Shown piece after piece: positions 1 through 25,056 of a stretch of DNA of 36,822 nt; within the stretch, counting starts at the first letter, position 1; every line of letters starts with the position of its first letter. The stretch is taken from positions 1 through 36,822 of IMG/VR virus record IMGVR_UViG_3300044825_000901, one strand, 5' to 3'. Origin of the DNA: a virus. The notes beneath the pieces are model-generated. The model did no database searches and was not told where the DNA came from. It saw nothing but the letters and a program-made list of their open reading frames with translations. Made by a program: the position numbers and the translations under genes.

Positions 1-127
1 GCCGCCCACTGGCGGCATCTGTGGGCCCGCCGGCGGCAGGTTGGGCTGCGGCTGCAGCATCCCCATCTGCATCGCCTTCATGCGCGCGTCCATCTCGGTG
101 TTGACGGCCTTGGCCTGGCGCTCCTTG
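1..127. repeat. 127-bp direct terminal repeat, left copy (circle-closing overlap)
   Basis: The first 127 bases are identical to 36696-36822. The overlap lies inside the portal reading frame, which continues in frame from one copy to the other, so the contig closes into a circle of 36,695 bp. A length of exactly 127 matches a common maximum assembler k-mer, which points to an assembly overlap rather than a true terminal redundancy. The physical virion ends cannot be read from this. Confidence 0.95.
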
Positions 128-1920
128 GCGCCGGCCATCTTCTCGGCCACCTCAGCCTGCTGCAGCGGGCTGGGGCCCTGCTGCTGGGGCATGCCCTGCT
201 GCTTGAGCGCGCCGATCGCCTGGTCCAGCACACCCTCGATCTGCTGCGACACGCGGAACTTGCTCACGCTCCACTGCAGCAGCGACAGCAGCACCGGTGC
301 AGCCTGCGGCACCGACTGCGCCATCGGCGCGACCTGGGAGATGAACGCCCCCAGGCCTTGCATGAACTGCACCGCGGCGTCGCGCTCGGCGGCCCAGTCG
401 AGTGCTGCCATGCTGTCGGCCTCGACGTTCACCCGGTACTGGGCCATGTGCTCGTCCTTGAGCAGGGCGATCGCGTCCAGCGCCATGGCCGCGTCAGGCG
501 TGCGCTCGATGTTCGACCGCTTAACGATCGTCTCGGGCTGCCAGTGCTTGCAGATGATCTCGGCCTTGATCCGCAGCGCCTGCGAGATCCAGTCGGCGAT
601 GTAGAACTGCATCAGCTGGATTCGGGTCGATCCGAACTGCGCCTTGATCTGCTGCGCCGTGGCCGTCTCGCTCGCGCGGCTCGAGCCCCGCATCACGTCG
701 GAGATGCCCAACACCTCGTAAATCTGCATCACCTTGTCCTGCCGGTACTGGCGCAGGCGCTCGATGCAGTTGACCACCATGTCGATGGGAGCCCAGTCCA
801 CCTGGCCCTTGATGCCGCCCTTCTCAGCGAACAGGGCCCAGTTGTCGACCGGGATCATCTGGTTTTCGGCGCCCTGCTGGAACATGCGCTGCACGCCGTC
901 GGCCGTCTTGTCGTACACGCCGACGACCTTGGCCGCGCGGGTCAGCCAGGTGATGCGGGTGTTGATCTCGTCGAGCTCGTTGAACTGGTCCTGCGCGAAG
1001 ATGTAGTCGGCGCGCGGCATGAAGTTGGAGCTGGTGACGTTGGCCGCCAGGGGCTTGGGGCACGGGAAGAACCCGTCGAGCTGCAGAGGGTCGTCCTTGA
1101 CGTCCAGGATGACGTCGGCGCCCTTGGCGTACCAGTAGACCTTCTTGTTCTCCTTGCACCAGATCTCGAACACCTCAGCCTTCGACCACGGGTCGTGCTT
1201 GGGTGACTGGTCGTTGACGTCGGCCTTCTTGACCTGCACGCCCAGGGGCACGATCTTGGCGATCTCCTCGCCGAATCGGTCGACCAGCTGGTCCTTGGTC
1301 ATCCACACGCGCCGCGCGACCCAGCGCACCTCGGGCCAGGTCCGCGCCGGCGAGTAGAAGAAGTCCTCCCAGTAGATGTAGTCGACCGGGGCGTCCTCGT
1401 CGACGATGCGCTCGGCCTCGGCTTCAGGCTGCAGCTCCATGCCGAACTCGTCGAACACGGCCGGCACGATGTAGGGCTCAGTTTTGACCTCATATCGGAG
1501 CCAAATTTGGCCCATGCCGACGATCAGCCAGTCCTCGATGCCCTGCCGCACGGCCGCGTCCCACACCGAGACGTTCTCGTCGAAGCCGCGGTTCAGGATC
1601 CGCTGCAGCATCAGCCCGGCCACGCGGGCCTGGTCGTCCTCGAAGTCTTGGAAGGTTCTGCTCACGTCGGCCTTGGGTGGCCGCGCGTACAGCATCGACA
1701 GCAGCACCTTCATCGTCGACCAGAACAGGTTGACCTTGCTCTCGTCCTTCGCATACGCGTCGCGCCGGTCCAGGTAGCGCTGCGTGATGCGGTTGGCGTC
1801 CGTGTGGAACTTCATCAGCTCCTGCTGCGACGCCTGAATCTCAGTCGACCAACGCTGCGCCAGACCCGCCGGGGTGCTTTGGAAATCGCTTGCGCTGGTG
1901 ATCTTGGCGTTGGTTTCCAT
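1..1920 (-). CDS. Portal protein, N-terminal 640 codons (gene crosses the contig join)
   Basis: Large portal of a short-tailed phage, expected to form the dodecameric DNA channel at the head vertex and to dock the terminase. The frame opens with ATG at 1918-1920 and is open to base 1; through the circular join it ends at TGA 36684-36686, giving 643 aa. The start overlaps the terL stop (TGATG), consistent with coupled translation. The N-terminus (METNAKITSASDF) leads into an alpha/beta core with many aromatic residues. The last ~120 residues are Gln/Met/Pro-rich and helical, as in the C-terminal barrel and tail of long portals. Position directly after terL and upstream of scaffold and capsid genes supports the call, as does the length (P22-type portals are ~700 aa). 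Identification rests on context and composition; no single catalytic motif exists for this family. Confidence 0.85.
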   Translation of the reverse strand, partial: METNAKITSASDFQSTPAGLAQRWSTEIQASQQELMKFHTDANRITQRYLDRRDAYAKDESKVNLFWSTMKVLLSMLYARPPKADVSRTFQDFEDDQARVAGLMLQRILNRGFDENVSVWDAAVRQGIEDWLIVGMGQIWLRYEVKTEPYIVPAVFDEFGMELQPEAEAERIVDEDAPVDYIYWEDFFYSPARTWPEVRWVARRVWMTKDQLVDRFGEEIAKIVPLGVQVKKADVNDQSPKHDPWSKAEVFEIWCKENKKVYWYAKGADVILDVKDDPLQLDGFFPCPKPLAANVTSSNFMPRADYIFAQDQFNELDEINTRITWLTRAAKVVGVYDKTADGVQRMFQQGAENQMIPVDNWALFAEKGGIKGQVDWAPIDMVVNCIERLRQYRQDKVMQIYEVLGISDVMRGSSRASETATAQQIKAQFGSTRIQLMQFYIADWISQALRIKAEIICKHWQPETIVKRSNIERTPDAAMALDAIALLKDEHMAQYRVNVEADSMAALDWAAERDAAVQFMQGLGAFISQVAPMAQSVPQAAPVLLSLLQWSVSKFRVSQQIEGVLDQAIGALKQQGMPQQQGPSPLQQAEVAEKMAGAKERQAKAVNTEMDARMKAMQMGMLQPQPNLPPAGPQMPPVGG

Positions 1921-3678: not shown

Positions 3679-4206
3679 CTAGCCCTCCGCGGGCCTTGTA
3701 GGCCGTTCTATCGCGTCGGCCTGGTCGCTGCCTGCAGGCGCCTGGCCGCCGGCCGGCACCCCCTCTGCACCTGTTCCCGGATCAATGATCCGGTACGTGC
3801 CGTCGTTTTCCCGTTGCAGATCAAGGACTTGCGCGGGCTGGTTCTCAATTTGTGCCGCAGGCGTGCCCACTTGCCGCGCCGACAACCAGCCCAGCTCGAG
3901 CCGGATGCCGCCGTCCACGTTGGTGTTCACCTGCAGCGGCATGGCCTTGTTGACCATCGCGGCGAAGATCTGGCGATCGCCCAGCGAGCCCTGCGCCCGC
4001 TCCACCAGCCAGCCGGCCAGGCCCTTTGGGTGACAGTCGCGCGCGGCCATCTCGACGGCCTCGCGGATGGTGCGCGTCAGCTTGTTGGGCACGCCCTTCT
4101 GCCGGCCGACCGGCAGCGGCGCCCCGCTCAGCGGGCTGCGCGGCCGCTCCTTCTCCGCTCCATGTTTCGGAGCCGCGACCTCAGCCTGATGTTGCGTTTC
4201 CATCAT
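3679..4206 (-). CDS. Probable terminase small subunit
   Basis: 175-aa protein immediately upstream of DUF3310 and terL. It has a basic segment GRQKGVPNKLTRTIREAV (about residues 34-51), the pattern seen in many phage proteins that precede TerL and are annotated as small terminases or DUF5681-like DNA binders. Two helices (AVEMAARDC and QIFAAMVNKAMPL) follow, then a Gln/Ala/Gly-rich acidic tail. Small terminases recognise the packaging site and regulate TerL. The assignment rests on position and the basic helix, not on a catalytic motif. Two adjacent ATGs (4204-4206 and 4201-4203) are possible starts; neither has a strong Shine-Dalgarno. The motif-rich DNA at 4371-4521 upstream is a candidate target site. 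Confidence 0.6.
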   Translation of the reverse strand: MMETQHQAEVAAPKHGAEKERPRSPLSGAPLPVGRQKGVPNKLTRTIREAVEMAARDCHPKGLAGWLVERAQGSLGDRQIFAAMVNKAMPLQVNTNVDGGIRLELGWLSARQVGTPAAQIENQPAQVLDLQRENDGTYRIIDPGTGAEGVPAGGQAPAGSDQADAIERPTRPAEG

Positions 4207-4370: not shown

Positions 4371-4521
4371 GTGCACACGCTGCACGTGCACGCGCTCCCC
4401 ACACCCCTTACAGAGCGAGTGCGCGTGCAGGTGCAAAGCCCCCTTTTTGAGGGGCTTTTGCACCCACCTGCACGACCATGCACATGCACTGCACGTGCAC
4501 TGCGCGTGCATAGCGCGTGCA
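4371..4521. repeat. Cluster of 13 TGCAC/GTGCA motifs (iteron-like array)
   Basis: TGCAC or its complement GTGCA starts at 4371, 4381, 4386, 4425, 4431, 4459, 4469, 4479, 4485, 4490, 4495, 4506 and 4517. Several successive copies are 10-11 bp apart (4459/4469/4479/4490 and 4495/4506/4517), so one face of the helix is presented repeatedly. The array fills the non-coding gap between the primase-helicase stop and the small membrane protein and surrounds a long hairpin. Candidate roles are a replication origin for the adjacent helicase, a packaging site for TerS, or a multi-site operator. The clustering is seen directly; the role is inferred. Confidence 0.8.
4425..4473 (-). terminator. Extended stem-loop, probable (bidirectional) terminator inside the TGCAC array
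   Basis: An inner stem AAAGCCCC (4435-4442) pairs with GGGGCTTT (4451-4458). It is extended by GTGCA/TGCAC with one bulged T, and by an outer GTGCAG (4425-4430) pairing with CTGCAC (4468-4473). On the minus strand it follows the primase-helicase stop by about 50 nt. The U-run is short (three on the minus strand, four on the plus), so termination may be partial; genes downstream on the same strand still need to be transcribed. Confidence 0.55.
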
Positions 4522-4523
4522 GC

Positions 4524-6665
4524 TCATTCTCGAACCCCGTGCCACATTGCTGGGGCTCCAGAACCCTGAGCCGCCCGCAACCTTCCCGGCTCGGTCAGCA
4601 CCACGCGCTTGGCCTTGGTTCTGTTCTCGCGGACGTACTCAATCTCCTCGAGCAGCCCGTCGCGCTGCAGCTCAAACAGCATCGAGAAGAAGTCCCGCCG
4701 CTCGATCCGTGGGAACTCGGCCGCCCCACGTAGCGCCAGCCAGGCGTTGTTGTTGGCCTGCGCGCTCATGGACAGCCGCTGCCCGGCCTTCTCGGCGTCG
4801 GCCAGCAGTCGGAGAATCGCAGCGCGTTGCGTGTTGCGCATCAGCGCAGCCGCGGCAGCATGGCCGGGGATGGAGCCGAAGCGCTTGAAGGTCTTGCTGC
4901 CCTGATCGAACTCCACCCGCAGCTCGTCCTGCAGCGGGCCCAGGTTGCACTTCTCGTGGCGCACGGTGACGACCTGGCCATCGCGGACCATGGCCCAGCG
5001 CGAGCGGGCGCTGTTGTTCCAAGCGGTGGAGCCCGAGAAGGTCGAATTCGTATCTTGGCCGGCGCCCATGCGCACGCTGGCCTTGTCGACGTGGGCCAGC
5101 AGCAGGACCGCCGCCCGGGTGACGTGAGCGATCAGGTTCAGGGCCCGCATGAAGCCTCGCACGGCCGTCCGGTCGTTCTCGTTGTCAGCGAACACGTCGG
5201 AGGCGTTGTCGATCACGATCACCTCAGCGCGCGTGCGCACGGCGGTATCGGCCAGCCACTGCATGCGCTCGGTCGGGTGGCCATCGCGCCACAGGACGCA
5301 GTCGGCCTGGGTCAGGTCGTAGACGGCCATGCGGCCGGCCAGGTCACGCATGGCCACGCCCTGGTCCTGGCAGATGTTGGCCACGCGGAAGTGCACCGTG
5401 CGCGCCTCGTCCTCGCCCGACAGCACCAGCACCCGGCTCTGCTTGGTGTCGATGCCCATGAACTGCTGCCCGGTGGCCAGGGACACGCCGAGCTGCAGGC
5501 TGAGGTTGGACTTGCCCACGCCACCGTTGGCGGCCAGCAGGGTGACCGTGCCCTCGGGCAGCCAGCCCTCAAGGCGCCAGGCCGTCGGCTCGGGCTGGGT
5601 GCCGGCCAGGTTGCCCCAGTCCATCGGCACCAGGTCGCCGGCTGCCGGTGATGCAGGCGCGGTGATCTCGCCCGTCTCAGGGTCGACGTCGGCCGCCTTG
5701 CCCAGGTTGACAGTGATGCTGGGCGGCTTGCGGTTGTCAGGCGCGAACTTCTCGGCCGACCTGACGGCCCGCTCGATCTCGTCGTACCGCGACTGCCAGC
5801 GCCGGATCTCTTCCTCGGGCCCGGTGGGCTTGACCTGGTGCATCAGGTCGCGCAGGAACTCGACGGCCGCGCCAGGGAACATGCCGTTGGACACCAGGCT
5901 GGCGGCCAGGCGCGTGATCGACTCGTGGTACACCCGCTCGCCCACTGGCGCCGTCAGGCCCGCGATCATCTCGCCCGCGTGCACGCCCTGCCCAGACGGT
6001 GATGCAGATTTAGTTGTCTGCACCTGCGACGCGGCCCGCAGGTTGTCCAGGTCGATGCCGATTGCGTGGCAGGCGTCCTCGAGGGACCAGCGCACGCTCG
6101 GGCGCCAGGTGTCGAGCTGCACGTTCCACTCGCCGGCTGCGCGCGGCTTGGTGTTTTTCCCAACCGGCAGTCGGACATAACGCACCGCGTTATTACCTGA
6201 GCGGTCGGCCTTGATGAAGCCACGCGTGGCCAAAGCCTGCATAAGCAGATCTACGAGCTGCCTGTTTCGGGCATCGGGGTCGTCGAGATCAATCAAGATG
6301 CCGACCTGGAACTTGCCAGGGCTGGTCTGGATCGCGTAGCTGTAACCCTGCAGGTCCTGCAGCTGAACGTCGTCCAGCACCAGCACAGCAAGCCTGACAA
6401 ACGCATCCTTGCGCCGCACGCAGTCGCCGTCCTCATTGGCGGTGAGCACTGCGGTGCAGTAGTAGGTGTTGTCTTGATGGCTGCGATCAATCAGAGCCGC
6501 TTGTTGCGGCGTGCCCTTGTAGATGCGCCCGGTCCACACCTCCGGCGGTGCGTTGCTGGGGTCTGCTCTGAACGTGCACACCCAGCCGTGTGTGCCCTCC
6601 ATGAGCTCGCCGTAGATCTCGGCGAGGAAGTCGCTGTTGGTCATCTGTTGCTCCTCGATGACCAT
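4524..6665 (-). CDS. Primase-helicase fusion (RepB-like primase region plus RepA/AAA_25 helicase)
   Basis: 713-aa replication protein. The N-terminal ~200 residues resemble RepB-type primase-polymerase domains: a beta strand with acidic pair LVLDDV (95-100), YAIQTSPGKFQ (110-120), IDLDD (125-129), then NNAVRYVRLPVGKN. The C-terminal half is a RecA-fold hexameric helicase: Walker A AANGGVGKS (378-386), SGEDE (416-420), Walker B VIVIDNASD (482-490) and LLLAHVDK (521-528). The last ~100 residues look like a winged-helix tail. It probably initiates phage replication by unwinding and priming. ATG 6663-6665 lies two bases after the Cro-like gene's stop with GAGG upstream; ATG 6642-6644 has a stronger GAGGAG and would give 706 aa. 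It is the second gene of the lytic operon. Confidence 0.85.
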   Translation of the reverse strand: MVIEEQQMTNSDFLAEIYGELMEGTHGWVCTFRADPSNAPPEVWTGRIYKGTPQQAALIDRSHQDNTYYCTAVLTANEDGDCVRRKDAFVRLAVLVLDDVQLQDLQGYSYAIQTSPGKFQVGILIDLDDPDARNRQLVDLLMQALATRGFIKADRSGNNAVRYVRLPVGKNTKPRAAGEWNVQLDTWRPSVRWSLEDACHAIGIDLDNLRAASQVQTTKSASPSGQGVHAGEMIAGLTAPVGERVYHESITRLAASLVSNGMFPGAAVEFLRDLMHQVKPTGPEEEIRRWQSRYDEIERAVRSAEKFAPDNRKPPSITVNLGKAADVDPETGEITAPASPAAGDLVPMDWGNLAGTQPEPTAWRLEGWLPEGTVTLLAANGGVGKSNLSLQLGVSLATGQQFMGIDTKQSRVLVLSGEDEARTVHFRVANICQDQGVAMRDLAGRMAVYDLTQADCVLWRDGHPTERMQWLADTAVRTRAEVIVIDNASDVFADNENDRTAVRGFMRALNLIAHVTRAAVLLLAHVDKASVRMGAGQDTNSTFSGSTAWNNSARSRWAMVRDGQVVTVRHEKCNLGPLQDELRVEFDQGSKTFKRFGSIPGHAAAAALMRNTQRAAILRLLADAEKAGQRLSMSAQANNNAWLALRGAAEFPRIERRDFFSMLFELQRDGLLEEIEYVRENRTKAKRVVLTEPGRLRAAQGSGAPAMWHGVRE

Positions 6666-7729: not shown

Positions 7730-8044
7730 ATGGACAAACACAATTACGACAACTACACACTGGTGCGCGAGTTAGTCCGCGACTACAAGCTCACGATTGC
7801 AGAAATTGCGGAGCGCACTGGATATTCAAAAGGATATGTTGGTCAACTGCGTCAGCGATTCCCGTCAGAGGACGCACAGCGGCGCCGCTTGTATTACTCG
7901 AACTGGGCCGAGGAAATGCTCAGCATTCTTAAGCGCTCCAAAAGCGCTATCGAAGCGCTTGACGGCACTAGCAAAGAGAACGAGCGCCTAGTGGACGACT
8001 ACCGCATTCTGATGGCCCGCATCCGAAGTGGCATCCGCGGATAA
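7730..8044 (+). CDS. Small helix-turn-helix regulator (104 aa)
   Basis: The N-terminal half holds a clear HTH: LVRDYKLTIAEIAERTG, turn, YSKGYVGQLRQRF (about residues 13-44). The rest is helical and charged (WAEEMLSILKRSKSAIEAL), perhaps for oligomerisation. Start at ATG 7730 is chosen because GGAG lies eight bases upstream and the predicted promoter fires after the alternative start at 7685. First gene of the plus-strand early operon. Likely a transcriptional regulator, possibly acting on the palindromes just upstream; no named family is recognised. Confidence 0.7.
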   Translation: MDKHNYDNYTLVRELVRDYKLTIAEIAERTGYSKGYVGQLRQRFPSEDAQRRRLYYSNWAEEMLSILKRSKSAIEALDGTSKENERLVDDYRILMARIRSGIRG

Positions 8045-8150
8045 ACAGCCTCCAAACTGGCCCTTCCCCACCTACAAGGGCCAGCCCTACAAACAGCCCC
8101 GCCGGCCAAAGCAAGACCCCCTTAAGAAATACCCGCCAGCACCCTTCTGA
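8028..8150 (+). CDS. Possible 40-aa Pro/Lys-rich peptide, GTG start overlapping the HTH gene
   Basis: GTG 8028-8030 overlaps the end of the preceding gene and reads to TGA 8148-8150. The product is rich in Pro, Lys, Gln and Tyr (NWPFPTYKGQPYKQP) and ends in KKYPPAPF. There is no strong ribosome site, so translation would rely on coupling. It would explain an otherwise empty stretch, but evidence is thin. Confidence 0.3.
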   Translation: MASADKQPPNWPFPTYKGQPYKQPRRPKQDPLKKYPPAPF

Positions 8151-8170
8151 CCCACGACAGGACCCACACC

Positions 8171-8350
8171 ATGCTTCGACCCTCTCACTTCCGCACGCCG
8201 CGCACCATCCACGAGGCCTGCTTCACCGACTGCAGCTACATCTACCGCACGCCTGGCGAGCGCCGCATCGCCAAGGCCGCCGACATTGCGGTGGCCGTGG
8301 GCCTGGGCCTAGCGGGCGCGATCACGCTGTTTTACTGGCTCAGTCGTTGA
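8171..8350 (+). CDS. Small membrane-anchored protein (59 aa)
   Basis: ATG 8171 follows AGGA at eight bases. The first ~38 residues are polar and basic with Tyr/Cys (FTDCSYIYRTPGERR). The last ~20 form one hydrophobic helix (IAVAVGLGLAGAITLFYWL) ending in Ser-Arg. This is a C-terminal tail anchor with a cytoplasmic N-terminus by the positive-inside rule. No family is recognised. Codon use matches its neighbours and it fills the gap between two well-supported genes. Confidence 0.5.
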   Translation: MLRPSHFRTPRTIHEACFTDCSYIYRTPGERRIAKAADIAVAVGLGLAGAITLFYWLSR

Positions 8351-9126: not shown

Positions 9127-9876
9127 ATGGCATTCGACCTTTCATCCATTCGCCGCACCAAGAGGCTGCGCGCACCCAAGATCGTCATCGCCGGCCCCGG
9201 CAAGATCGGCAAGACGACGTTCGCCGCCAGCGCACCCAGCGCGATCGGCATCCTGACCGAGGACGGCGCTGACGCTGTCGACGCGGCCGCCTTCCCGCTG
9301 GCCACCAGCCTGGCCGACGTGTACCAGGCCATCAGCACGCTGCTGAACGAGGAGCACGACTACCAGACGGTGTTCCTGGATTCGCTCGACTGGCTCGAGC
9401 CCCTGGTGCATGTGCACGTCTGCGCGGCCAACAAGTGGGCCAGCATCGAGGCCGCCGGCTACGGCAAGGGCTACATCGCCGCGGCCGAGGAGTGGCGCAC
9501 GCTGCTGCAGGGTTTCGAGGAGCTGCGCGCTCAGCGAAACATGGCCGTGATCTTGATCGCGCACGACAAGATCAAGCGCTTTGAGTCACCGCTGCACGAC
9601 GGGTACGACCAGTACGTCCTGAAGCTCCACGACCGCGCCGGTGCCCTGGTGCAGGAGTGGGCCGACGTCATCGGCTGGGCCAACTACCAGATCGTCACCA
9701 CCGAGTCGGACGCCGGCTACGGGAACAAGGAAGTCAAGGCCCGCACGACGGGCAAACGAATCCTTCACGTCGAGCCGCACCCCGCTCACATGGGCGGCAA
9801 CCGATTCGGCCTAAAGAACATGCCCCTCGACTGGGAGGCATTCGCCGCGGCTCTGTCCGCATCTCAAAACGCCTGA
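9127..9876 (+). CDS. Sak4-like RecA-fold ATPase (AAA_24), ssDNA annealing/recombination
   Basis: 249-aa ATPase. Walker A is GPGKIGKTTF (23-32), the acidic residue of the second strand sits in ILTEDGAD, and Walker B is TVFLDSLDWLE (81-91). AVILIAHDK later in the protein resembles the sensor strand of RecA-like proteins. Phage proteins of this form next to an ssDNA-binding protein and an exonuclease are usually Sak4 single-strand annealing recombinases. The gene is followed at 18 bases by a DUF669 protein and then a PD-(D/E)XK nuclease, so the three likely act together in recombination-dependent replication or repair. ATG 9127 has AGGA upstream. Confidence 0.8.
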   Translation: MAFDLSSIRRTKRLRAPKIVIAGPGKIGKTTFAASAPSAIGILTEDGADAVDAAAFPLATSLADVYQAISTLLNEEHDYQTVFLDSLDWLEPLVHVHVCAANKWASIEAAGYGKGYIAAAEEWRTLLQGFEELRAQRNMAVILIAHDKIKRFESPLHDGYDQYVLKLHDRAGALVQEWADVIGWANYQIVTTESDAGYGNKEVKARTTGKRILHVEPHPAHMGGNRFGLKNMPLDWEAFAAALSASQNA

Positions 9877-22156: not shown

Positions 22157-23950
22157 CTACGGGGTTCCCTTGAGGTAGCGCAGCAATCGCACGACCTCGC
22201 TTCGATCGAGCACGCTGCCTTCCTTGGCAGCCTGATTTTCCAACATGCGGATAAAGGCCTGCTCGTTCTGCAGCGCCTCGGCCAGCGCGCGATCCTTGCG
22301 CGCGTCGACCGCGCCGCGCACGCTGCCCAGGATGCTGCGACCGACCACCGCGCCAGGGCCGCCGACCGCGTCCAGAGCCACGTCGCCCAAGGCGCGCGCG
22401 GTGCCGGCCGCGAACTGGTCGCTGGTCGTGTTGCTGCCGCCGCCAGCGGTAGCCGAGCGCTTAACGCCTTGCACGATGTTCTGGCGGCGCAGGGCGTCCA
22501 GGATGGACTCCAAGCGCTGACGTGAGGGGTCGGACAGCAGCGTGGACTTGTCGGGCGCGCGTGCGGCGTCCAGGGCCCGGTTAAGGCCCGCCTCGGTAAT
22601 CTTGGGGATGTCGCCGGCTGGGTCGGCCGACACACCGCGCACCCGTCCCGTGGCCATGTCGTAGTAGGACTCGCGCACGCGGCCGGCAGCCTTGGCGGCA
22701 TCTACCGGCCGCTGGTCCTTTGCGTAGCCGGTAATGACGTCTTGCCACTTGTTGCCGGTGACGTTGTTCAGGATGCTGTCGGCCTCCCTCAGCACGTCAA
22801 TGGTGGCCGCGGAGTCGCGCGGGGCGGCTTGGTAGGCGTTGGGGCTCAGAGAGTTGCCGCGGCCGCTGAGGTTGTGCCGGATCGTTCCCAGGTGCTCAGG
22901 GCCGAATGCCGGCCCCAGTCGGTTCATCTCGCTTTCGATCGACTGCAGCATCGACAGCACGGCCGGATTGGACGCCTCTGGCGACTGCTTGGCCAGCTCA
23001 ATGTTGGCGCGGAACTGCGCCAGGTCGTTGCCGAACTGAGCACGGTCTGCGGCCTGGAATGCTGTCGCTTTGTTGGCCTTGATGTTGGCCTCACGCGCCG
23101 CACGTCGCGCCGCCAATTCACCCACCTCTGCGGTCGCTGCGTCGAACTCGCCGGCCACCGCACGCGCCTGGTTCTGGTCGAAGTCGTACCAGTTGGCGCC
23201 GCTGCGAGCGCGCGAGCCGGCCTCTAGGCGCGCCAGCTCGGGGTTGCTCAAGCGCGCGGACACCGACAGCGGGATGCTGCCGCCAGGCGCCTGCGGGGCC
23301 TGCTGACGCATAGCCTGCAGCGTCTGCTGCAGGACCGCCCTACGCTGCGGGCTGGTGGCGCCCTGCGGCACGATGGCCTCGGTCACTTCCTGCGCCGCGC
23401 GCGACTGACCGCGGAAGGGCATCGTGGCCGCGTTGAGCGCGGACATCGACAAGGGAAGCGCGCCGCCAATCGCGCCGCCGAGAATCATGTTGTTGGTGCG
23501 GGTTTCACCCTCGCCGCGCGGGACGATCGCACCGTACCCGGCGCCCGTCGCAGCACCCGCTGCAGCCGTTGCGAGACGGCCGGCACCAGCGGCCACCGGG
23601 ATGCCCGGGATCGCCAGCGTCGGCAGAATGCCTCCTGCCGCCTGCAGCAAGCCGCCGCCGGTGATAGTGCCGGCCAGCCGCTTGTCCATTTCCCGCTTGC
23701 GCGCCACCTCCTGCTCCATGGCGCGCTTCTCGTCCTCGCTGCCGAACATGTCGGTGTAGAGGCCGCGCACGCCGGTGCCCAGGTCGGCCATGCCGGCGCC
23801 GATGTTGGCCAGGATCTTGTCGCCGGTGGACATGCCAGCAGTCGGGTAAAACACCGGATCGGGCGCGACCGCCACAGGACCGTTCTGTGCGCGAAGTCGA
23901 GCCCTGGCAATCGCCAAGGCCTTCTGCTGCTCTAGCGTCATTTGTTCCAT
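22157..23950 (-). CDS. Probable internal virion / DNA ejection protein (597 aa)
   Basis: Large helical protein just upstream of the fibre. After a charged N-terminus it has a long Gly/Ala-rich, moderately hydrophobic region (about 90-140: GGGLLQAAGGILPTLAIPGIP and GRLATAAAGAATGAGYG) that could insert into or cross the host membrane. The rest is coiled, rich in Ala, Gln, Arg and Glu. Podovirus ejection proteins have this composition and gene position. ATG 23948-23950 has AGGAG eight bases upstream; ATG 23941 would give an exact ATGA overlap with the previous stop. A lytic transglycosylase motif is not visible. Confidence 0.65.
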   Translation of the reverse strand: MEQMTLEQQKALAIARARLRAQNGPVAVAPDPVFYPTAGMSTGDKILANIGAGMADLGTGVRGLYTDMFGSEDEKRAMEQEVARKREMDKRLAGTITGGGLLQAAGGILPTLAIPGIPVAAGAGRLATAAAGAATGAGYGAIVPRGEGETRTNNMILGGAIGGALPLSMSALNAATMPFRGQSRAAQEVTEAIVPQGATSPQRRAVLQQTLQAMRQQAPQAPGGSIPLSVSARLSNPELARLEAGSRARSGANWYDFDQNQARAVAGEFDAATAEVGELAARRAAREANIKANKATAFQAADRAQFGNDLAQFRANIELAKQSPEASNPAVLSMLQSIESEMNRLGPAFGPEHLGTIRHNLSGRGNSLSPNAYQAAPRDSAATIDVLREADSILNNVTGNKWQDVITGYAKDQRPVDAAKAAGRVRESYYDMATGRVRGVSADPAGDIPKITEAGLNRALDAARAPDKSTLLSDPSRQRLESILDALRRQNIVQGVKRSATAGGGSNTTSDQFAAGTARALGDVALDAVGGPGAVVGRSILGSVRGAVDARKDRALAEALQNEQAFIRMLENQAAKEGSVLDRSEVVRLLRYLKGTP

Positions 23951-25056
23951 AGCGCTCGCTCCTGCGGCGTCATGGCCGCCCAAACTGCAGGATCAACACC
24001 AGGCGGCGCTGAACCCGCTGATGCGCCGGCGCCAACACGCGGCATCATCGGCAGCACATCCTCAACGCGCAGTCCGTTGCGCTCGGCCATGCTGCGGTAG
24101 GCAGCCGCCAAGTCGTTGCGGCGCTGGTCGGCGCCCGCATAGAGCTGCCGCGCGATCTGCTGCATGCTCGACAGCTGTTCAGGCGTCAGCCGCGCGCCGG
24201 TCATAATCTGATCGGGCTTTTGCAGCAGGCCCTGGAACACGCCGCGGGCGTTGGCGATCAGCGCGTATTCGCTCTCGCGCACCACCGACTCCGGGTCCAG
24301 CATCTTGCCGAACGCGAACACCAGGGATACCTGCTTCGTCGGATCCTTCGCGATGGTGGGATCGCTCAGCAGCGTCATCACCGTCTCAGCGTGGCGCACG
24401 CCCTCGCCAATCTTGTCGGACTTCTTGCCGAACTCGTTGCGCAGCGTGGTCGCCTGGGTGAAGTTGCGGTTCTCGTTGGTGTTGCCGGCGATCACGCCCT
24501 GCAGGGCCAGGCCCTGGCGCCGGAAGTCGTTGTTCAGCTCCTGCTGGCGCAGCCGATCCTGACGATCGCGCTCCTCGCGCGCCTGCCGCTCGATTGCCGT
24601 CTCCATGGTCGTGGCCTGGCGCTCAAGTGATGCGCGTCGCGCATCACGCGACGCAAACGGGTCCTTGATGTACTGGCCATCGGGCGTGAGCATGCCGGCG
24701 CCGAGCTTCATGGGCTCTTGCGCGGCCGCCGCGCGCTTGAGGAACTGCGCCTGCACCGGCTGGAAGCTCTCGCCGGCGTATTGGGCCGCCAAGGCGTTGA
24801 GCATGGCCTGCTCGCCCGACTGGCCCTGCTGACGCGCGAAAGCCTGCAGCGCGGACGTGTCGACGTCCTTCGACTCCAGATCATCGAGCTCTTGGTACAC
24901 CTTGCCCAGCCGCTGGCGCATGCTCATGGGCAGCGCCTGGCCAGGCTGCACGCTGTTGGACAGCGTACCGCCAGGCGACACCAGCGAGCTCATGGCCATC
25001 GGCAGCATGGCCCGCTTGCGGCGCTCGACGTCGTCGGAAAAGGTCAGCGGATCCAT
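23938..25056 (-). CDS. Probable internal virion protein (372 aa)
   Basis: Helical and Gln/Arg/Ala-rich. The middle has a long charged coiled coil (ERQAREERDRQDRLRQQELN). The segment VFAFGKMLDPESVVRESEYAL recurs in internal or ejection proteins of several podovirus groups. The C-terminal end is Gly/Ala/Pro-rich and closes with VWAAMTPQERALWNK. It sits between a 117-aa protein and the 597-aa ejection candidate; the three are likely packaged together. No enzyme motif seen. Confidence 0.65.
   Translation of the reverse strand: MDPLTFSDDVERRKRAMLPMAMSSLVSPGGTLSNSVQPGQALPMSMRQRLGKVYQELDDLESKDVDTSALQAFARQQGQSGEQAMLNALAAQYAGESFQPVQAQFLKRAAAAQEPMKLGAGMLTPDGQYIKDPFASRDARRASLERQATTMETAIERQAREERDRQDRLRQQELNNDFRRQGLALQGVIAGNTNENRNFTQATTLRNEFGKKSDKIGEGVRHAETVMTLLSDPTIAKDPTKQVSLVFAFGKMLDPESVVRESEYALIANARGVFQGLLQKPDQIMTGARLTPEQLSSMQQIARQLYAGADQRRNDLAAAYRSMAERNGLRVEDVLPMMPRVGAGASAGSAPPGVDPAVWAAMTPQERALWNK

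Follow-up and report, generated by a model that had tools for sequence, protein, structure and literature searches.

A motif array beside a primase-helicase gene as the probable iteron replication origin of a group of uncultivated podoviruses

In the RSF1010 system, RepC binds the iterons of the origin, RepA unwinds the DNA, and RepB′ primes at ssi stem-loops (PMC4234260, PMC4538821). In phage P4, a single protein, alpha, has primase and helicase parts and contacts the repeats of the origin through a winged helix at its C-terminus (PMC4234260, citing Ziegelin and Lanka 1995 and Yeo 2002). In the PLE satellite of Vibrio cholerae, the RepA_N domain with which the initiator binds DNA varies in step with the iterons of the origin, the modules have been swapped repeatedly, and cognate pairing has been demonstrated experimentally (PMC8263062). 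Origin-directed nucleases are a known driver of change in these satellites (PMC8263062).

The DNA analyzed here (the window) comprises an entire virus record of IMG/VR (36,822 bp). It begins inside a portal gene (positions 1–1920, minus strand, without a stop before position 1), and the genome may therefore be circular or permuted and arbitrarily cut. Judging from its repressor and integrase genes, the phage is probably temperate. The original prediction of 13 copies of a five-base motif within 151 bp was borne out: 16 strand-specific matches to GTGCA/TGCAC start between positions 4371 and 4517, and merging of the overlapping GTGCAC pairs at 4371/4372, 4386/4387, and 4495/4496 leaves 13 separate places. 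The predicted spacing of 10–11 bp between successive copies at 4459/4469/4479/4490 and 4495/4506/4517 was likewise correct. Over the genome, these matches average 0.38 per 151 bp, and outside the array their count in 151 bp never exceeds 4; the array is thus not scattered elsewhere at equal density. Markov simulations based on local intergenic sequence (n = 5000) gave a mean of 2.0 matches and a maximum of 9. Because TGCAC is rarer than expected over the whole genome (94 observed, 145 expected), the array is not a composition effect. No strand-symmetric 5-mer is clustered more densely anywhere in the record, and a 5-mer density scan of the whole record found no second array of this kind. The second densest cluster (CGCGC ×14, strand-symmetric in 151 bp) occupies positions 22281–22431, within a minus-strand reading frame (22157–23983).

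The primase-helicase gene (4524–6665, minus strand) ends on one side of the array, and on the other lies the next gene downstream, the presumed terS (3679–4206, minus strand), which is assigned by its place before terL, with no basis in homology, and matches phrog_11043, a family of unknown function. Along the direction of transcription, the array opens with an iteron cluster on the minus strand (4469–4522) of five direct units 10–11 bp apart, starting at 4469 (degenerate), 4479, 4490, 4501, and 4512. The last four stand in register as TGCACATGCAC, TGCACGTGCAC, TGCGCGTGCAT, and AGCGCGTGCAG, respectively, and the same position and phasing recur in relatives with other motifs. The iterons are followed by a GC-rich hairpin (4425–4473) with the stem AAAGCCCC...GGGGCTTTT; both of its arms contain the motif, as had been noted from the sequence beforehand. 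Next comes an inverted motif pair, with its first arm at 4421–4429 (minus strand; GCGCGTGCA on the plus strand) and its second at 4387–4395 (plus strand; TGCACGCGC), around a core at 4396–4414 that reads TCTGTAAGGGGTGTGGGGA on the minus strand. A similar core, CTTAGATAGGGTGTGGG, is present in many relatives, whatever their motif. The inverted pair might form a stem with the core as its loop or might provide paired binding sites, two arrangements that are indistinguishable from sequence. Further motif copies, GTGCAC and TGCACGTGCAC, lie distally at 4371–4390. Strong hairpins recur among the relatives, and a T-run of at least 4 was found in 6 of 42 array hairpins, a count that is approximate in that the automatic fold at times chose the inverted pair over the central hairpin; none was found at the hairpin of the window in a scan of the window. 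Given that so few hairpins carry a T-run, termination is not their shared role. Since the neighboring protein carries a primase, a natural guess is that the hairpin is a priming (ssi-like) site.

Viral-contig scans yielded 80 loci by TerL and 73 loci by helicase; a scan for TerL relatives in bacterial genomes found none. The same kind of element was present in the large majority of relatives with a complete helicase-terS interval, and its anatomy was kept, with direct iterons 10–11 bp apart, a GC hairpin, and an inverted motif pair around the core. The repeated word was not. The motif is TGCACGCGC in the window, L012, L014, L093, and L069; TGCGCTCGC in L007, L008, L010, L089, and L070; TGCACCGCA or TGCACCGAA in L041, L043, L101, and L038; TGCTTCCA in L031 and L124; and CGGGACA in L009 and L074. 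Close relatives, with helicases 89–91% identical to that of the window, have an array without TGCAC that is built from TGCGC instead, so it is the architecture that is conserved and not the word. The suggestion that relatives with the same helicase but no such array would count against the element was accordingly misleading, as these close relatives carry the same array in its TGCGC version. Where terS was identified, the array invariably lay 2–380 bp from it. The end of the helicase gene, by comparison, was up to 2.8 kb from the array, as many relatives have other genes inserted between the two. By reading of the sequence, some of these insertions resemble genes of the PAPS-reductase type (L002, L012) or glutaredoxin genes (L041, L125). 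Among GenBank phages, the same order of repA, array, and terminase was found with other motifs in Rhodoferax phage P26218 (KP792623; CTGCTAC/GTAGCAG) and ctfPj964 (GTACTCACAG), the helicases of which share only ∼29% identity with that of the window over the ATPase. Their arrays lie at 9460–9300 on the reverse complement of locus L145 (P26218) and at 7860–8310 of locus L146 (ctfPj964). The text of the P26218 genome paper was searched for a replication origin, and none is described there.

The protein proposed as initiator is the 713-residue product of the primase-helicase gene, which contains an AAA_25 helicase domain in its middle. The N-terminal part (modeled residues 1–339; 5649–6665, minus strand) was assigned as an AEP primase domain of the RepB′ type. 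Its AlphaFold2 model matched RSF1010 RepB′ with E values of 3.7e-8 (3h20) and 1.2e-5 (3h25, with initiator DNA), and the Pfam RepB_primase model matched 40 of 43 relatives at E ≤ 1, with the protein of the window, taken alone, under the curated cutoff. The helicase part matches IncQ-like RepA of plasmids at 28–29% identity; plasmid relatives cover either the helicase part or the primase part only. The C-terminal part (modeled residues 560–713; 4527–4988, minus strand) was modeled by AlphaFold2 as a winged helix, with a core pLDDT over 90. Fold matches to this domain in the PDB were weak (best E value of 9e-3), the best being to the winged-helix proteins BLM RQC, PadR, and RTP and to DnaD; the P4 origin-binding domain was absent among the matches listed. 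A sequence search of the PDB with the C- and N-terminal domains returned nothing significant, and fold comparison was needed for both.

Across 53 loci, a Mantel test related the similarity of the arrays in 6-mers to that of the proteins. The helicase C-terminus (residues 591–713) gave a rho of 0.53, which rose to a maximum of 0.55 for residues 651–690 (p = 0.001), compared with 0.43 for the helicase core and 0.06 for the helicase N-terminus; TerL gave 0.09. The N-terminus had been put forward beforehand as the candidate DNA-binding part, a place that now probably passes to the C-terminus. Linkage by itself does not explain this pattern and would favor TerS, since the array is always close to terS, whereas the helicase gene is often distant. 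Two natural swaps were also found. In L083 and L098, a linker like that of L007 and L008 is joined to the last ∼110 residues of the window's helicase, and the array is that of the window. In L009 and L074, a different ATPase and C-terminus follow the primase, together with the CGGGACA array. The replacement in these two loci begins after approximately residue 330, which marks a modular swap point, as the primase part, Cro, and the terminase genes remain close to those of the window. The C-terminal winged helix of the primase-helicase is thus the likely reader of the array, as judged from the covarying sequences. TerS, Cro, the repressor, AAA_24, and DUF3310 were also considered as readers and were rejected, the correlation of each being gone once the helicase C-terminus was known.

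The covariation could be followed to single residues in the wing (residues 676–692; 4590–4640, minus strand). Residue 681 (Asn in the window; codon at 4623–4625), which lies at the wing tip beside an invariant arginine in the AlphaFold2 model, was first chosen by eye from the wing alignment. As a subsequent check, every column of the helicase alignment was scanned against motif base 4 (TGCAC or TGCGC). Residue 681 was Asn in every one of the 28 loci with a TGCAC array and was His, Ser, or Asp in every one of the 23 with a TGCGC array (51/51). No other column kept the residues of the two array types completely apart; those that came nearest were 683, 679, and 685, which also belong to the wing, followed by 657. 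On a tree built without the C-terminus, all seven supported independent switches at base 4 agreed with residue 681 (sign test, p = 0.016), and 11 pairs were counted on all branches. A rule for residue 681 was written down before further loci were fetched, and all 18 scorable arrays among winged helices outside the fit obeyed it, which constitutes a held-out but not strictly blind test, since some arrays had been displayed earlier, a few contigs were shared, and two loci were near-duplicates. The array of L184, unscorable by the automatic window, also fitted the rule on inspection. A one-residue code was nevertheless broken by L237 and L241, two distant loci that are almost identical to each other and score under the threshold, in which Asn precedes the wing arginine but the arrays are of the TGCGC type. 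The wing of these two is shorter by one residue and has the sequence RKKY, as in other TGCGC types, and it therefore seems to be the wing as a whole, and not one residue, that sets the motif base. In an exploratory scan of the 713 residues that ignored kinship, residues 679, 638, and 639 came out best for motif positions 6, 8, and 9, respectively; the scan of helicase residues gave no clear reader residue for position 7.

The locus resembles RSF1010 and the IncQ group in its RepB′-like primase fold, its RepA-type helicase, and the combination of iterons with a stem-loop at the probable origin (PMC4234260, PMC4538821). It differs in that RepA, RepB′, and RepC are separate proteins there, whereas one protein would hold the three roles here. 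The iterons are read by the separate RepC there, in contrast to the winged helix fused to the helicase, the likely reader, here, and the RepC model in Pfam gave no match to this covarying domain. The iterons of RSF1010 are, moreover, 20-bp units, whereas those of the window are 10–11 bp apart. The P4 alpha/ori system is alike in pairing a primase-helicase that has a C-terminal winged helix with origin repeats, an arrangement predicted here from fold and covariation. The helicase of P4 alpha is, however, of the SF3 type, as opposed to AAA_25 here, and its primase is of the Toprim type, whereas the N-terminus here matches AEP primases such as RepB′. The repeats of the P4 origin also differ, and no second array accompanies the one found in this genome. 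The archaeal plasmid pRN1 is similar in that its AEP primase-helicase carries a winged helix at the C-terminus and that a stem-loop of the origin follows the gene downstream (PMC4234260), but it has an SF3 helicase. The PLE satellite shares the covariation of an initiator DNA-binding domain with iterons and the repeated swaps; its initiator architecture is unrelated, with specificity in an N-terminal RepA_N domain and iterons of ∼30 bp. The element would thus work like P4 alpha/ori and RSF1010 oriV while being a member of neither.

The covariation reveals the reader of the array, not a start of replication at the array. DnaA boxes bear on the latter. The 19 kb that surround arrays contained 5 copies of the perfect box TTATCCACA, against a single copy in 656 kb of other sequence, a 170-fold enrichment (Fisher p = 1.1e-7, kinship ignored). 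Among all loci scanned, such a box followed ten distinct arrays (L020, L024, L027, L028, L029, L031, L044, L059, L101, and L165), on the same strand and just past the last motif, in several motif classes; the few remaining boxes of this larger set lay elsewhere in the contigs. The window itself has no perfect DnaA box, and its GC skew, proposed earlier as a check, shows no turn at the array. Taken together, these observations make it highly probable that the array is the iteron replication origin of the phage, bound by the fused primase-helicase-winged-helix initiator. In such a mechanism, the C-terminal winged helix would bind the iterons and the inverted motif pair and would thereby bring the RepA-type helicase and the fused RepB′-type primase to the array. 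The DNA would then be opened at the array, with host DnaA in those relatives that have a DnaA box, and priming would start there, perhaps on the hairpin once it has become single-stranded.

The same winged helix could instead serve mainly to regulate transcription that continues from the helicase operon to terS and the late genes, making the array a regulatory site without origin function. This would give an identical covariation with the C-terminus and would suit both the place of the array between early and packaging genes and the fixed orientation of the inverted motif pair that flanks the conserved core. The scan of the window, however, found no sigma-70-like promoter at the array, the T-run of a terminator is rare at the hairpin, and the adjoining DnaA boxes and the fusion of primase to helicase indicate replication, so that a purely regulatory role appears unlikely. 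The array could possibly be both origin and regulator.

Origin, packaging site, and operator had all been left open by the original prediction; the origin has since gained from the covarying tail, the DnaA boxes of ten relatives, and the RepB′/RepA-type architecture, and the other two are disfavored. A pac or cos site read by TerS would account for the constant proximity of the array to terS. Covariation with the primase-helicase or with TerS had been proposed as a check, and it was found for the helicase C-terminus but not for TerS, the similarity of which gave a rho of 0.19 with the motif and a partial value of −0.08 given the helicase C-terminus. Moreover, L009 has a TerS 80% identical to that of the window (and a TerL 98% identical) with a wholly different motif, whereas L093 shares the motif of the window with a TerS only 51% identical. 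Because TerS does not covary with the array once the helicase C-terminus is given, and despite the array lying closer to terS, a packaging site is very improbable.

An operator of the Cro-like protein or of a CI-like repressor would be in keeping with a temperate phage, and repressor operators diversify too, but the Cro of L009 is 100% identical to that of the window beside the CGGGACA motif, which places this explanation among the least probable. Partial correlations given the helicase C-terminus were, in addition, −0.16 for Cro and −0.02 for the repressor, and the window contains no comparable array between cro and the repressor gene. An ordinary intrinsic terminator with chance or composition-driven repeats, for which the stem of the window's hairpin might speak, is just as implausible in view of a repeat density far beyond simulation, an anatomy that recurs in relatives with different words, and the scarcity of T-runs.

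Returning to the array as an origin, we lean towards a more specific reading, in which wing residues 679, 681, 683, and 685 and helix-region residues 638 and 639 of a three-in-one initiator (RepB′ primase, RepA helicase, and winged helix) determine the iteron bases. Initiator and origin would have switched together many times (∼7–11 at base 4 alone), and replicon specificity would thus never settle, perhaps as a way of avoiding incompatibility with relatives that infect the same cell or of evading parasites directed at the origin.

The analysis provides a candidate origin and its likely reader for the cultivated Rhodoferax phage P26218 as well as for podoviruses of a large uncultivated group. 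As the repeat sequence and the helicase tail change together in dozens of relatives, these loci amount to a collection, made by nature, of origins matched to their initiators, and some of these pairs differ mostly in the last 100 residues and offer a set for learning how the base specificity of a winged helix changes. The fusion indicates how the work of the three IncQ proteins can be united in a single chain. With repeated concerted switching of origin and initiator, replicon incompatibility and origin-directed parasitism would become directly testable in these phages.
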